This document shows positions 4,802-12,556 of a stretch of DNA of 64,000 nt, piece by piece (position 1 is the first letter of the stretch; the number at the start of each line of letters is the position of its first letter). The stretch comes from Actinosynnema sp. ALI-1.44 (GTDB lineage: Bacteria > Actinomycetota > Actinomycetes > Mycobacteriales > Pseudonocardiaceae). A program made the translations under genes and the position numbers. The notes under the pieces are model-generated. The model made no database searches. It worked only from the letters and a program-made list of their open reading frames with translations, and had not been told where the DNA came from. Location: NCBI RefSeq assembly GCF_001984155.1, contig NZ_MTQO01000047.1, positions 372,001 to 436,000 on the forward strand, in the 5' to 3' direction.

Positions 4802-5338
4802 CTAGCGGGGGGCACGGAGTCTGCTCCACAACGGCAGCAGGTACCAGAAGAACACGAACCACGCCAAGGCGCCGCCGGTCAGCCACGAACCCGCGTTCAT
4901 GCCGAGTACGACGGTCAGGATGAGCAGCAGGGCGGAAGTCAGCGCGAGCATCAGCAACCCCAGTCCGCACAGCGCGAAGCGGTTGGCGTACCGCACGAGC
5001 TGTTCCTTCAGCCGCTTGCGGAACACCATGCGGTGGAAGGCGGCAGGCGCGATCAGCAGCGCGTTGGCGGCCGCGCCGAGCACGAGGCTGGCGACGTAGA
5101 CGTCCCGCTGGAAGAGGCTGAAGCTGGCGAACCTGGGGGTGAACGCGACGGTCAGCAGGAATGCCAGCAGCAACTGCACCCCGGTCTGGGCCACGCGCAG
5201 TTCCTGCAGGATCTCGCCGTAGTTGCGGTCGAGTCGCTGGATCCGGCTCTCGCCGCGGACGGCGTAGTTCCAGCGATCGTGCTCGCTGTCCAGGAGCCGG
5301 TGCTCGGCCCGGTGCTGGGCGGTGTGGTTGGGGTGCAT
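4802..5338 (-). CDS. DUF6328 family four-helix membrane protein
   Basis: A protein of about 178 residues with a hydrophilic N-terminus, the family signature 'ILQELRVAQTGVQLLLAFLL', and four predicted membrane helices in two hairpins. 'IAPAAFHRMVFR' lies between helices 2 and 3. This matches the DUF6328 family of actinobacterial membrane proteins, whose function is unknown. The ATG at 5338 is chosen as the first conserved methionine; an upstream TTG at 5368 would add ten atypical residues, and neither has a clear ribosome binding site. It lies downstream of the subtilase gene on the same strand but is separated from it by a strong hairpin, so it probably has its own promoter. Confidence 0.75.
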   Translation of the reverse strand: MHPNHTAQHRAEHRLLDSEHDRWNYAVRGESRIQRLDRNYGEILQELRVAQTGVQLLLAFLLTVAFTPRFASFSLFQRDVYVASLVLGAAANALLIAPAAFHRMVFRKRLKEQLVRYANRFALCGLGLLMLALTSALLLILTVVLGMNAGSWLTGGALAWFVFFWYLLPLWSRLRAPR

Positions 5339-8874: not shown

Positions 8875-9408
8875 TTACAGGCGTTCGCTGAGCACCCCAT
8901 CGGGGGAGACGAGTAGGCCACCCTGCGGCGTGCCGCCTCCACACTCCGGACCACTCGGGTACAGGGTCTTCGGCGTGATCACCAGGCGCGGAGCGGCCAG
9001 CTCGGCACCGGCTGGATCGATCAACCGAAGCGTGACATCGACCGGCTCGCTCACCAGAGTCGGCAGGTCGGCGAAGGAGTTCTTGCCCCCGGTCGGTTCC
9101 ATCCGCGCGCCACAAGCGCTGTCCGGTCCGCCCGTGGCGCACGGCATCGGCCGGGCCGCGGTCGACGGGTACAACTCGAGCGCGGTGTCGGTGCACGACC
9201 CGTTCCAGCAGGTGGTCATCCGGGCCGAACCGACCTTCGGCGAGTACGCGGGGTCGATGTCGAGCGAGATGCCCTTCCTGGCCGCCGCCCCACCGCACTC
9301 AATCGGCGAGTCACATCCCGCGACCAGTGCGGTGGCGGCCAGCAACGCGGCGACGGCGAAAGTCCGGTTCACACCGATGGGACGGCGCCTACCGGCTTTT
9401 CGTTGCAC
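8875..9408 (-). CDS. Cysteine-containing lipoprotein, last gene of the MNIO operon
   Basis: A 177-residue predicted lipoprotein with hydrophobic leader 'FAVAALLAATALVAGC', where LVAGC is a good lipobox. The mature part has further cysteines ('IECGG', 'TTCWNGSC', 'PMPCATG', 'DSACGAR', 'PECGGG') and a beta-rich composition; I do not recognise a domain. The GTG at 9408 overlaps the end of the preceding gene by 20 bases, indicating translational coupling; an internal GTG at 9372 would still leave a full signal peptide. As the last gene of the TIGR04222/MNIO operon it could receive, anchor or protect the modified product at the membrane, but that is inference from position. Confidence 0.7.
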   Translation of the reverse strand: MQRKAGRRRPIGVNRTFAVAALLAATALVAGCDSPIECGGAAARKGISLDIDPAYSPKVGSARMTTCWNGSCTDTALELYPSTAARPMPCATGGPDSACGARMEPTGGKNSFADLPTLVSEPVDVTLRLIDPAGAELAAPRLVITPKTLYPSGPECGGGTPQGGLLVSPDGVLSERL

Positions 9409-9736
9409 GTCTGCGCCACCACTTCACCCTCGGCAGGTGCCCGTTCTCCCGCAACCATTCCACGAACCCGGCCGCGTCCTCACGCGCGCGTGACCCGACC
9501 GTTCTGGGATGTGCTCGGGCGTACTCGGCGAAAAGCGGGACGAATCTGTCCTCGAGGTCGGTGCACACATCCGGCTGGATCATGGCGACGACCCGCCGCC
9601 GCTTCGACCGCAGCGCGGTCGCCTCCACATCGAGTCGTCGTGGGTCGAACCCCGGTGGCGGTGGGCCGTCCGCCAGCAGGGCGCGCAGCAGCTGCGCCTG
9701 CTGTTCGGCGAGCCGGTCTCGTTGCGGCTGTGTCAT
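9389..9736 (-). CDS. Small putative partner of the MNIO enzyme
   Basis: A 115-residue soluble protein encoded 19 bases after the DUF692 enzyme. It is helical and charged, with 'RLAEQQAQLLRALLADG' near the N-terminus and 'DLEDRFVPLFAEYARAHP' in the middle. No cysteine pair or known catalytic motif is seen. MNIO enzymes in studied systems need a small partner, encoded next to them, that binds the precursor peptide. This gene occupies that position, although it does not look like a full-length DUF2063 partner. The ATG at 9736 was chosen over upstream codons because the frame before it is low-complexity and overlaps the enzyme gene. The partner role is inferred. Confidence 0.65.
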   Translation of the reverse strand: MTQPQRDRLAEQQAQLLRALLADGPPPPGFDPRRLDVEATALRSKRRRVVAMIQPDVCTDLEDRFVPLFAEYARAHPRTVGSRAREDAAGFVEWLRENGHLPRVKWWRRRATKSR

Positions 9737-9755
9737 GGCGGCGTCCCTTTCCCTG

Positions 9756-10550
9756 TCACAGCCGATCCCGGATCGCCTGGAGCTCGGCCGCCAGCTCGGC
9801 GTCGGTGGGGTAGTCGCCGTCGCGCTCCAGCAGGACACCCGGCGGCCTGGTGCGTTTCACCAACTCCGACAACAGGTCCAGCACCTCCGGCAGCACCGGG
9901 TGCGTGTGCGTGTCGTGGTAGACGCCGTGGTGTTCCTCGCCGCCAGCGACATGCAGGTACGCCAGGCGTTCCAACGGCAGGTCGTCGAGCAGTTTTTCCG
10001 GGTCCTGGCCGAGGTTTCGGGCGTTGGCGTACATGTTCGCGACGTCCACAAGCAACAGACAACCGGTGCGTTCGGTCAGCTCCGCGAGGAACTGCGCCTC
10101 GGTCAGCTCCGCGTCCGGCCATTCCAGCAACGCCGCGATGTTCTCCAGCGCGAACGGCACGGTCAAGTTCGCCTGCACCGCTTTCACGTTCTCCACGAGG
10201 ACGTCCAACGCTTCCTTCGTGCGCGGCACCGGCATCAGGTGCCCGGAGTCGAGGCCGCCAGCGCGGACGAAACAAACGTGGTCGCTGGCCACCGGCGCGT
10301 CGAGCACGTACGCCAGCTTGGCCAGGTGCTCGACGCGTTTCATGTCAACGGGTTCCGCGCCGCCGACCGACAGCGAAACCGCGTGCGGCAGCACGGGCGT
10401 GCCACGTTCCCGAAGCACCACAACGGACTCCGGCAGCTGGTCCGGATTCAGGTTCTCCGCGACGACCTCGACGAAGTCCACCCCGGGCAGCCGCTCGACC
10501 GTGATGTCGATCTCCGATCGCCACCCGATCCCCACACCGAGTTCACGCAC
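9756..10550 (-). CDS. DUF692 multinuclear non-haem iron oxidative enzyme (MNIO)
   Basis: A 264-residue TIM-barrel enzyme of the DUF692/MNIO family, to which MbnB and TglH belong. Characterised members use two or three iron ions to oxidise cysteine or C-terminal residues of ribosomal peptides. Expected metal and active-site motifs are all present: 'GVGIGWR' at the start, 'PHAVSLSVGG', 'ASDHVCF', 'ALENIAAL', 'DVANMYANARN', 'YLHVAGGEEHHG', 'HDTHTHP' and 'LLERDGDYP'. The GTG at 10550 has AGGAGG 8 bases upstream. The gene sits 63 bases after a TIGR04222-type protein with a Cys-rich tail and just before the small partner gene, so modification of cysteines in those tails is the natural hypothesis. 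Confidence 0.9.
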   Translation of the reverse strand: MRELGVGIGWRSEIDITVERLPGVDFVEVVAENLNPDQLPESVVVLRERGTPVLPHAVSLSVGGAEPVDMKRVEHLAKLAYVLDAPVASDHVCFVRAGGLDSGHLMPVPRTKEALDVLVENVKAVQANLTVPFALENIAALLEWPDAELTEAQFLAELTERTGCLLLVDVANMYANARNLGQDPEKLLDDLPLERLAYLHVAGGEEHHGVYHDTHTHPVLPEVLDLLSELVKRTRPPGVLLERDGDYPTDAELAAELQAIRDRL

Positions 10551-10613
10551 CGCCTCAGCCTCCTGACCCGCATATGGGTGTTGTCGCTGCCGCCGAGAAA
10601 GCGGAGTCCACCA

Positions 10614-11504
10614 TCAGGAACCGCCGCCGCCGCAACCGCCGCCGCCTCCACAGCTACTGCCGCTGCTGCTACTGCTTCCACAGCTACTGCTCCCCCCGCA
10701 GCTGCTGCCGCCGACCAACACTGTCGACCCGTCGCCGGTGGATCCACCGCGGCGACGTGGTGTCGAACTGGCCTTCGGCCGCACCGGGAACAGCTTCGAG
10801 ATCAGCGGATCAGGGTACGCGGCCATCCCGCGGTGAGCGACCAGCGCCGCCGCGCCGCTGCCGCCGGTGTCCGCACGCTTCAACAGCTTGCGCGCTGCTG
10901 CGGTCGGGCCTCGTTTGATCGGGCGCATGGCCAACACCGCCGCCACACACGTCACGATGAGCAACAATGTCAGATAGCCGATCGGAGAGCCGAGATTCGC
11001 GCCGTTGACCGCTCGTACGACGCCGACTACCAGCAGCACGACCAACGGCGAGGCCGCGAGGAACACCGTGCCACGTCCCACGTGATCGACGAGCAGGCCG
11101 CGCCGCACGAGCACGGACTCGACCTCGTCGAACACCGACAGGCGCATGACTCGGAGCTGGTAGTAGTCCACCATGCGGCCGGGGCGGGCAGTGATGTCCC
11201 TGAGCAGCCGCTCTTCCAACGTCGACGCGGGCTTGTGGACCGAACCCCGTACCGCGTGCAGCCGCCCGCTGCGGTCGACGCGGACCACGCCGTGGTCGAC
11301 GAGGTTCGCGATCGCCGACTCGGCCATCCTGGTCCGGCCACCGGCGAGGAGCGCGGTCTCCTCGACCGTCAGCGGATCCCGTGTGTTCGTCGCGCCCGCC
11401 GCCCGGAGCCGCCCGCGCAGCAACAGCGTCGCGATCACGGCGACCGCGAGGCCGCCGCCGTAGAGCCATAAGAACGCCGGACCCGAAATACCCCAGGGGT
11501 TCAT
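10614..11504 (-). CDS. TIGR04222-type membrane protein with Cys/Gly/Ser tail (second copy)
   Basis: A 296-residue protein. The ATG at 11504 has a GAGGGGAGGGG purine run in front. It has one N-terminal membrane helix, a soluble section ('EETALLAGGRTRMAESAIAN', resembling a winged helix), two closely spaced membrane helices near residues 150-200, and a low-complexity tail. The last 32 residues are almost only Gly, Ser and Cys, with cysteines at about 269, 275, 285 and 291. This fits the TIGR04222 ('near_uncomplex') family of actinobacterial membrane proteins, often found beside DUF692. The tail has the composition of a ribosomal peptide core carried on a membrane anchor. That it is modified by the adjacent MNIO is an inference. 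Confidence 0.8.
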   Translation of the reverse strand: MNPWGISGPAFLWLYGGGLAVAVIATLLLRGRLRAAGATNTRDPLTVEETALLAGGRTRMAESAIANLVDHGVVRVDRSGRLHAVRGSVHKPASTLEERLLRDITARPGRMVDYYQLRVMRLSVFDEVESVLVRRGLLVDHVGRGTVFLAASPLVVLLVVGVVRAVNGANLGSPIGYLTLLLIVTCVAAVLAMRPIKRGPTAAARKLLKRADTGGSGAAALVAHRGMAAYPDPLISKLFPVRPKASSTPRRRGGSTGDGSTVLVGGSSCGGSSSCGSSSSSGSSCGGGGGCGGGGS

Positions 11505-11522
11505 CGCCCCTCCCCTCTGTGT

Positions 11523-11562
11523 ACGGGTCGGCCCGGGGATCACGATCCCCGGGCCGACCCGT
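11523..11562. terminator. Perfect 18-bp hairpin between the two TIGR04222-type genes
   Basis: ACGGGTCGGCCCGGGGAT at 11523-11540 and its exact complement at 11545-11562 enclose a 4-base loop. It lies in the gap between two co-directional minus-strand genes of one operon, 18 bases after the first stop. It could be a partial terminator, or could stabilise the upstream mRNA end, so that the first gene is made in excess of the enzyme genes. Confidence 0.75.
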
Positions 11563-11579
11563 CTCCCTCATTCTTTTTC

Positions 11580-12440
11580 CTACCCCCCGCAGCCGCCACC
11601 CCCGCAGCCGCTGCTTCCCCCTGCGTCTCCTCCTCCGGTACTGCCTCCATCGCCGGCCAACCACGCCGACGCGACCATCGCCCCGCCCAGCCCGCTGGCC
11701 GCGTGGATCCCGTGTGCGGATCCACCGAGCAGCGAGGCCCGGATGAGCTGGTCGGGGTGGCTCGCGAATCCGCCCACGGCCACCAGTTCGACCGGTCTGC
11801 TGGCCGGCGCGGTCCCCACCGCGTCGGCCCCGGCGAACGTCCTCGGGCAGATCGGGTGCCGGTACAGCGCGTACCCGATCAGCCCCGTCCCGATCAGCAC
11901 CAGCGTCAGCCAACCGATCGGCCGTCCCGCCGTGATCCCGGACATCCACCGCGCCACACCGGCGGCGAACACCGCGGCGACCGGGACCACGCTGATCAGC
12001 TTGCGGTGCCTGGCCACCTCGTGGTCGACGAGGTAACCCGCCCGCACCAGACCCGCTGCCACCTCACCGACCGAGTCGGACCCGGCCAGCCGGTGGGTCA
12101 GCATCGTGACGGACCTCCGGCCGTGCCGCACCACGTCGGCCAGAACAGTGCGCTCGACCGGGTTGGTACCCCCTGCCCGACCGGCGACCTCCAGGTATCC
12201 GTCGCGAGCCGCGCGCAGCTGGCCGGTCTCGACCAGTTGGGCGACCGCGGCCTCCACCACGCGTCGCCTGCCCCCGGTCAGGCAGGCCAGGTCCAGCGCC
12301 GTCAACGACCCGCCGGGTGCGGTCACCGCACCCGAACGGGTCAGGATTCGAACAGCGAACGAAAACAGCAAAGCAACGGAAAACCCGAGCAGATAAATAC
12401 CGATGAACGTCGGTCCTGGTATTTCCCAGGTGTCTTCCAT
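11580..12440 (-). CDS. TIGR04222-type membrane protein with Cys/Gly tail (first copy)
   Basis: A 286-residue paralogue of the following gene and the first gene of the five-gene operon. The ATG at 12440 has a GGGGGAAG site. The architecture is the same: an N-terminal helix ('FIGIYLLGFSVALLFSF'), the helical segment 'DLACLTGGRRRVVEAAVAQ', two membrane helices around residues 150-195, then a Gly-rich tail with cysteines at about 279 and 284. The tail is shorter and has fewer cysteines than in the second copy, so the two may be different substrates or subunits. The family is known from sequence surveys; no function is established to my knowledge. Confidence 0.8.
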   Translation of the reverse strand: MEDTWEIPGPTFIGIYLLGFSVALLFSFAVRILTRSGAVTAPGGSLTALDLACLTGGRRRVVEAAVAQLVETGQLRAARDGYLEVAGRAGGTNPVERTVLADVVRHGRRSVTMLTHRLAGSDSVGEVAAGLVRAGYLVDHEVARHRKLISVVPVAAVFAAGVARWMSGITAGRPIGWLTLVLIGTGLIGYALYRHPICPRTFAGADAVGTAPASRPVELVAVGGFASHPDQLIRASLLGGSAHGIHAASGLGGAMVASAWLAGDGGSTGGGDAGGSSGCGGGGCGG

Positions 12441-12556
12441 GATCTTCCCCCTCTCTCCCCAGAGAGCCGGAAATCAAGTGGAGACACCACTTTCTTCGTC
12501 GAACGGGCACCCGGCAAGACGCCTTGACGAAGATTTAGGGTTGTGTTGGGGGTAAC

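Follow-up and report, generated by a model that had tools for sequence, protein, structure and literature searches.

Several described systems pair an MNIO (DUF692/PF05114) enzyme with a partner protein that acts together with it on a peptide. Bufferins and captophorins are copper-binding peptides carrying 5-thiooxazoles, which form on the cysteines of these metallophore precursors; in these systems (PMC12668002), the MNIO and its partner, a DUF2063-RRE protein termed PME-type 1, act on repeated cysteines in precursor peptides with a Sec signal. TglHI and MbnBC act on short peptides, and their products are known. In the work of Antoine et al. (2025; PMC12452194), TIGR04222 proteins figure among the putative substrates of MNIOs; the authors also model a Micromonospora TIGR04222 protein with a Cys-rich C-terminal segment and, as PME-type 2, a 115-residue Saccharothrix protein. 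Here we analyze an operon that brings these three families together, encoded by five minus-strand genes at positions 8875 to 12440 of a 64,000-nucleotide stretch (hereafter the window) of the genome of Actinosynnema sp. ALI-1.44, an 11.7-Mb draft in 54 contigs.

The operon is a member of the class that Antoine et al. have already catalogued, in agreement with the statement in the initial annotation of this DNA that the family pairing had been noted in surveys. The families are those of the published TIGR04222-MNIO-PME-type 2 sets, and the gene order is the same in most loci. The frequencies differ, as do the samples and cut-offs from which they were obtained: in PMC12452194, PME-type 2 accompanies at least 10% of TIGR04222 sets and one third of TIGR04222 genomes lack an MNIO, whereas here the partner followed MNIO in 92 of 93 loci and the correspondence between the two families was nearly one-to-one. 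The published tails are placed in the periplasm, whereas those of most members examined here are predicted to be cytosolic. The bufferin and captophorin systems (PMC12668002) likewise use an MNIO and a partner on repeated cysteines. However, their precursors are Sec-signal peptides rather than proteins with three transmembrane segments, and the partner encoded in the window is too short to include an RRE domain. The operon contains neither the precursor that defines those systems (Sec-signal DUF2282, EGKCG or 6/12-Cys) nor a PME-type 1 protein; its only candidate precursors are the TIGR04222 proteins. The window MNIO shares its fold family and iron ligands with the enzymes of TglHI and MbnBC, and a helical partner, weakly matching MbnC, is also common to them, but the candidate substrate here is a membrane protein. 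No characterized product of any member was found in the open-licence literature, as the initial annotation had supposed.

We judge it somewhat more probable than the contrary that the MNIO-partner pair oxidizes the cysteines of the TIGR04222 tails in place, yielding a membrane-tethered, modified, and probably metal-binding tail in the cytosol. The genes concerned are all present where the initial annotation placed them, in the minus-strand order TIGR04222 protein #2, TIGR04222 protein #1, MNIO, 115-residue partner, and lipoprotein. TIGR04222 #2 (11580 to 12440; 286 amino acids, three predicted transmembrane segments) is the first gene of the operon, and the last 24 residues of its product (11583 to 11654, minus strand) form a Gly/Ser/Cys tail with two cysteines and a C-terminal CGG (..GGSTGGGDAGGSSGCGGGGCGG). 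TIGR04222 #1 (10614 to 11504, counted from an ATG start; 296 amino acids, also with three predicted transmembrane segments) ends in a longer, predicted disordered tail, residues 245 to 296 (10617 to 10772, minus strand), with four cysteines in SSC/GGC units (..GGSSCGGSSSCGSSSSSGSSCGGGGGCGGGGS). Both proteins belong to the TIGR04222 family, with scores of 115.3 bits for #1 and 118.9 bits for #2 against an NCBIfam cut-off of 43.

The MNIO gene (9756 to 10550; 264 amino acids) encodes a complete enzyme, as had been claimed for it. The protein scored 278 bits against PF05114 (cut-off 25), and the nine iron ligands named for TglH in PMC10880893 were all retained when the two were aligned (H56, H91, E136, D169, N172, H200, D213, H215, and E242). 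These ligands were invariant in all 77 distinct MNIOs adjoining tailed proteins and in all 14 adjoining tail-less or missing proteins (13 of a tail-less clade discussed below plus L121). The count used the same 104 of 108 rows as the MNIO tree, with L128 and identical rows excluded, and the residues of the MNIO of genome G501 stood outside it. The highest-scoring NCBIfam model for the window MNIO was BufB, at 201 bits, below that model's cut-off of 310. MNIOs 88 to 91% identical to that of the window are encoded at five close loci, of which four come from named Kibdelosporangium strains, placing the host genome in Kibdelosporangium. One locus (L203), with an MNIO 90% identical to that of the window, comes from a record titled Rhodococcus rhodnii NRRL B-16535, a strain label that is probably wrong. 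A second MNIO in the host genome (L100, G000:C28) is of another subtype and lies with a weak relative of the partner (E 7e-10) in a stretch without TIGR04222. At L121 (G031) a deletion has fused the MNIO frame to the beginning of the TIGR04222 gene, the mark of a decaying operon.

The initial annotation's proposal depended on conserved co-occurrence of DUF692 and TIGR04222, and such co-occurrence was found in three actinobacterial genome samples, in each of which the two families corresponded nearly one-to-one at strict cut-offs. Among 120 genomes of the host family, 63 had TIGR04222 above the cut-off, 60 had MNIO, and 59 had both (Fisher p 7e-28). The corresponding numbers were 30, 36, and 29 in a sample of 398 genomes from the phylum (E 1e-10; p 2e-36) and 103, 98, and 97 among 150 genomes of a second family (E 1e-8; p 9e-31). 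The p values are uncorrected for relatedness, and four genomes occur in two samples; MNIO without TIGR04222 at E 1e-10 was seen in the phylum sample in G141, G272, G501, G167, G191, G204, and G472. TIGR04222 genes preceded MNIO in 72 of the 93 loci in which both were present and followed it in 21, and 43 of these loci contained two to four TIGR04222 genes. Of the taxa labeled in this analysis, f1 is the Pseudonocardiaceae, home of the named Kibdelosporangium loci; f5/g53 is taken to be Streptomyces and f3 the Micromonospora family.

The 115-residue protein encoded after MNIO (9389 to 9736) is a true partner and not only a protein in the partner position, as first described. A profile search of the loci around MNIO found it directly after MNIO in the 92 of 93 TIGR04222-MNIO loci given above, and the sole locus without it is that of G050, whose MNIO is broken. 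It followed MNIO directly in 5 of 15 MNIO loci without TIGR04222, and in 20 loci of f5/g53 it was fused to the MNIO C-terminus. It is probably of PME-type 2, with weak likeness to DUF2063; its length fits the PME-type 2 model of Antoine et al. The window protein matched DUF2063 at E 0.044 and 14.5 bits, under the cut-off of 27.2, and 8 of 34 relatives matched the same family, the best at E 0.0018. Comparison of the partner profile with five model-confirmed DUF2063 proteins in hhalign gave E 0.0012 with a probability of just 19%. A Foldseek search with the predicted structure (predicted local distance difference test score [pLDDT] 72) placed MbnC first of 30 matches, though weakly (E 2.3). NGO1945, whose DUF2063 domain is the structural reference for PME-type 2 proteins (those encoded directly after MNIO and scoring below the Pfam cut-off for DUF2063), was absent from the Foldseek and PDB sequence-profile matches, and no PDB sequence relative of the partner profile was better than E 0.15. 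Each of these likenesses is weak on its own, but together they are consistent, and sequence and structure predictions suggest that the partner is probably a diverged DUF2063-like domain without an RRE domain.

The tails themselves are unusual in composition and look as if they have been shaped by selection on the protein sequence. Cys made up 8.9% of the C-terminal 30 residues of 195 TIGR04222 proteins sampled with no composition filter, compared with 4.5% Ala, 4.2% Asp, 3.2% Arg, and 1.7% Val. The figures were 9.9% Cys, 4.2% Ala, 3.1% Asp, 1.1% Arg, and 0.9% Val in 150 distinct tails of at least 15 residues, which were chosen from 198 TIGR04222 proteins by a Gly/Ser/Cys/Asp-richness rule that favors Cys. 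Gly or Ser flanked the 627 cysteines of these tails at 593 of the 624 residues listed before them and at 605 of the 627 after them. Cysteines were never one or two residues apart, only 24 pairs were three apart, and the commonest spacing was six, whereas 500 shuffles of the tails gave a mean of 147 pairs, and never fewer than 120, at three or fewer apart. In 61 of the 145 Cys-bearing tails the final Cys was third from the end.

Functionless junk arising by slippage in a GC-rich repeat might produce something similar, because the codons GGC (Gly), AGC (Ser), and TGC (Cys) are one base apart, and bacteria commonly have other Gly-rich tails. However, slippage does not explain why unfiltered C-termini hold nearly three times as much Cys as Arg and five times as much as Val, why about half of the tail serines use TCN codons (873, compared with 857 AGY), or why adjacent and next-but-one cysteines never occur, and the tail is retained in most of the MNIO genomes read. 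The Cys spacing, the Gly/Ser neighbors, and the Cys excess even in unfiltered C-termini thus argue for selection on the protein, and we regard slippage as a very improbable origin for the tails. A possible leader motif preceding the tail, VALxGLxAYPD, was rejected because it is also found in tail-less members, and it therefore looks like part of the fold.

Tails of this kind go with MNIO across genomes. At least one tail with two or more cysteines was found in 106 of 123 genomes with MNIO but in only 2 of 10 without it (p 2e-5; by genus, 1e-4). The test covered genomes whose TIGR04222 proteins were read, with G132 excluded as fragments and the broken-MNIO genome G050 treated separately, and four genomes (G722, G642, G688, and G732) scored as untailed only because just the unlinked copy was fetched. 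In the second family, 30 best-scoring and 20 hand-picked non-MNIO-linked loci were read from the 103 matching genomes. The best-scoring TIGR04222 protein at 29 MNIO loci had two to six tail cysteines (the one remaining locus of the 30 is cut off by a contig edge), and the copies in six genomes without MNIO had none or one. At one locus of this family (L253), one extra TIGR04222 copy had no tail Cys and another had one. Some genomes that have MNIO, the window's own among them (L135), also encode Cys-tailed TIGR04222 copies with no MNIO close by, and the enzyme would therefore act on them in trans.

A natural exchange of anchors suggests which part of the protein matters. At a distant locus, that of G501 (L195), MNIO and partner are kept, and the third gene, whose ATG overlaps the partner's stop, encodes a 90-residue protein with a single transmembrane segment and a Cys/Gly/Ser tail. 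This protein matched no NCBIfam model, and TIGR04222 was not found at the locus. Because the tail sits on a different anchor here, the tail, rather than the TIGR04222 domain, appears to be the shared element. The swap is a single locus, in a family in which just 2 of 100 genomes have any MNIO, the other MNIO being of a different kind. At the locus of G050 (L128), MNIO is in three pieces, no partner was found, and the adjoining tail has one Cys, which might reflect a natural loss or a sequencing error.

Several observations weigh against the tails as the MNIO substrates. The two exceptions in the tail test, G096 and G104, have Cys tails with no MNIO found, in fragmented assemblies of approximately 480 and 370 contigs, respectively. 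Among 241 TIGR04222 proteins in MNIO genomes, 172 had two or more tail cysteines, but 60 had none and 9 had one, and some Cys-less copies adjoin MNIO together with a tailed copy (for example, L069, L073, and L087). A clade of f5/g53 (L162 to L166, L168, L169, L172 to L174, L177, and L180), nested among tailed ones with support of 99/83, has lost the tail. It comprises 14 MNIO rows, of which 11 have a tail-less TIGR04222, two have none in the stretch, and one is at a contig break. The fused partner was kept in all 14 and the listed conserved MNIO residues in all 13 checked; the enzyme in this clade must therefore have another substrate or be decaying. A small, unlinked TIGR04222 protein whose tail has a single Cys occurs in some genomes of the clade, and a DUF4142 protein intervenes in some f5/g53 loci (13 of the 21 loci of the genus).

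These observations could mean that the tails act as simple thiol brushes while MNIO modifies something else in the operon or genome, either a missed small open reading frame or another residue of TIGR04222: both the retention of MNIO and partner in the tail-less clade and the Cys-less TIGR04222 proteins of MNIO genomes would fit. This explanation accounts less readily for the association of tails with MNIO across genomes or for the G501 locus, where another anchor carries the tail next to MNIO and partner, and we think it unlikely. The initial idea that the tails are MNIO substrates is thus better supported than before by linkage, by the tail-MNIO association, and by the anchor swap, and the tails are the likely targets of a still putative modification.

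The side of the membrane on which the tail lies was evaluated from models and sequence statistics. The AlphaFold2 model of TIGR04222 #1 (mean pLDDT 78) has transmembrane helices at residues 8 to 35, 152 to 171, and 176 to 192, a small domain between the first and second, and three short helices after the third; the tail is at pLDDT below 50 at residues 245 to 290 and 292 to 296. A PDB fold search for the TIGR04222 domain returned no match with E under 0.47. A first count of flanking charges (68 members richer in Lys/Arg on the tail side versus 4) considered 148 full-length distinct proteins, of which 73 have three transmembrane segments, and used unequal flanks, so it was redone per residue. 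The tail side then had 0.225 Lys/Arg per residue compared with 0.066 on the opposite side, and it was the richer side in 69 of the 73 three-segment members and the poorer in 4. Median insertion energies across 147 members were -0.2, 2.5, and -0.1 for the three segments, and 6.3 for the lowest stretch after the third, on an approximate energy scale and with automatic segment choice misplacing some segments.

The charge bias and insertion energies argue, on balance, for a cytosolic tail in the window proteins, contrary to the periplasmic placement of Antoine et al. (PMC12452194), and they weaken the earlier suggestion that the product is displayed at, or cut from, the cell surface. A cytosolic tail also removes a difficulty of access because MNIO could reach it at any time.

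On the other side, the second transmembrane segment is marginal on the energy scale (under 2 in 61 of 147 members); of 148 members scored, 53 show one more hydrophobic stretch, a fourth, with about seven Lys/Arg before it and few after, so that their tails are perhaps outside; and the published view itself, based on models, predicts periplasmic tails, with bufferins there too (PMC12452194). The tails might then be MNIO substrates that are modified on the cytosolic side before their C-terminus is moved across the membrane, to give a metal-binding tail at the surface or in the periplasm. However, the lowest stretch after the third segment costs 9.4 and 5.5 in the two window proteins and is under 2 in just 14 of 147 members; in window protein #1 the homologue of the fourth segment contains His/Arg, and in the tail-less clade it contains Arg; and the G501 anchor, a transmembrane segment followed by FNRTARRSSHGRRR, directs its tail inward. 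We consider this route to an outside tail improbable.

The favored mechanism, in-place oxidation on the cytosolic face, would begin with recognition of the TIGR04222 membrane proteins by a cytosolic MNIO-partner complex, which would oxidize the cysteines of the C-terminal [GS]-C-[GS] tails where they stand. By analogy with the copper-binding peptides, the oxidized cysteines would most likely end up as heterocycles of the 5-thiooxazole type. The substrate would remain an intact protein with three transmembrane segments, an external N-terminus, and a tail facing the cytosol. Instead of a released peptide, the result would be a tail of modified cysteines, tethered to the membrane and binding a soft metal, with copper as a first guess. 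It also counts against this mechanism that searches of the open-licence literature gave no evidence from mass spectrometry, or on metals or copper, for any member.

The surroundings of the operon point to vertical inheritance in a core chromosomal neighborhood. The operon is flanked by msrB upstream and an S8 peptidase gene downstream. In counts that are lower bounds, within fetched flanks of a few kb, hemQ (NCBIfam-confirmed) lay near 42 of the 93 loci, in both f5/g53 and the Pseudonocardiaceae, and msrB near 48, in the Pseudonocardiaceae only; loci of other families had neither gene in the fetched flanks. Model-confirmed names among the neighbors were hemQ, hemE, and DUF4142, and hemY stayed below the NCBIfam cut-offs. 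The shared hemQ/msrB surroundings, together with an MNIO tree that by eye is largely clustered by taxon, suggest this mode of descent. The two genes were dropped as functional partners because a similar msrB/hemQ order without MNIO is known from Mycobacterium tuberculosis, and they are taken as no more than a hint of vertical descent. We propose only tentatively the wider picture in which the cytosolic tail of a full multipass protein is the target of an iron enzyme of the type that makes ribosomally synthesized and post-translationally modified peptides, to give a permanently tethered intracellular metallophore, with several paralogues in a cell served in trans, as a vertically inherited part of core physiology (beside hemQ and, in the Pseudonocardiaceae, msrB) and not a mobile natural-product cluster.

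Other features of the locus have a narrower distribution. The S8 peptidase (PF00082; 5466 to 8783 of the window, minus strand), just downstream of the operon, has relatives adjoining 26 of the 93 loci; it may be a processing enzyme, and tail cleavage is a possibility, but neither would belong to the core of the system. The last gene of the operon (8875 to 9408) overlaps the partner gene by 20 nucleotides and encodes a Cys-containing accessory lipoprotein with the lipobox LVAGC that matched none of the family models searched. Its relatives occur at 20 of the 93 loci, in the Pseudonocardiaceae only, with conserved cysteines (ACWxGxC and others) that, judged by eye, resemble fold cysteines and lie outside any Gly/Ser-rich tail; for both reasons it was rejected as a core substrate. 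Upstream of the operon, at 12476 to 12492, lies a perfect inverted repeat, AAGTGG-N5-CCACTT, that has no assigned strand and could be an operator or a hairpin in the 5' untranslated region. An alignment of six Kibdelosporangium upstream regions shows it to be conserved, within a gap between msrB and the operon that is itself strongly conserved. The repeat is present in every Kibdelosporangium locus examined that covers the region and has no other exact copy in the draft genome. No Rfam element reached its gathering score between positions 5000 and 16000. A defense system was considered and rejected, as a PADLOC search gave no match at E 0.1.

Should the tails prove to be modified, MNIO chemistry would reach beyond small secreted peptides and include membrane proteins. 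The idea is now directly testable because it specifies the substrate proteins (those with at least two cysteines in a Gly/Ser tail), the partner, and the side of the membrane, and because natural comparisons are at hand in the tail-less clade, the anchor swap of G501, and the broken MNIO and single tail Cys of G050. If true, the genomes surveyed here would contain a modified-Cys and probably metal-handling device in 59 of 120 members of one actinobacterial family and in 97 of 150, or two thirds, of a second.

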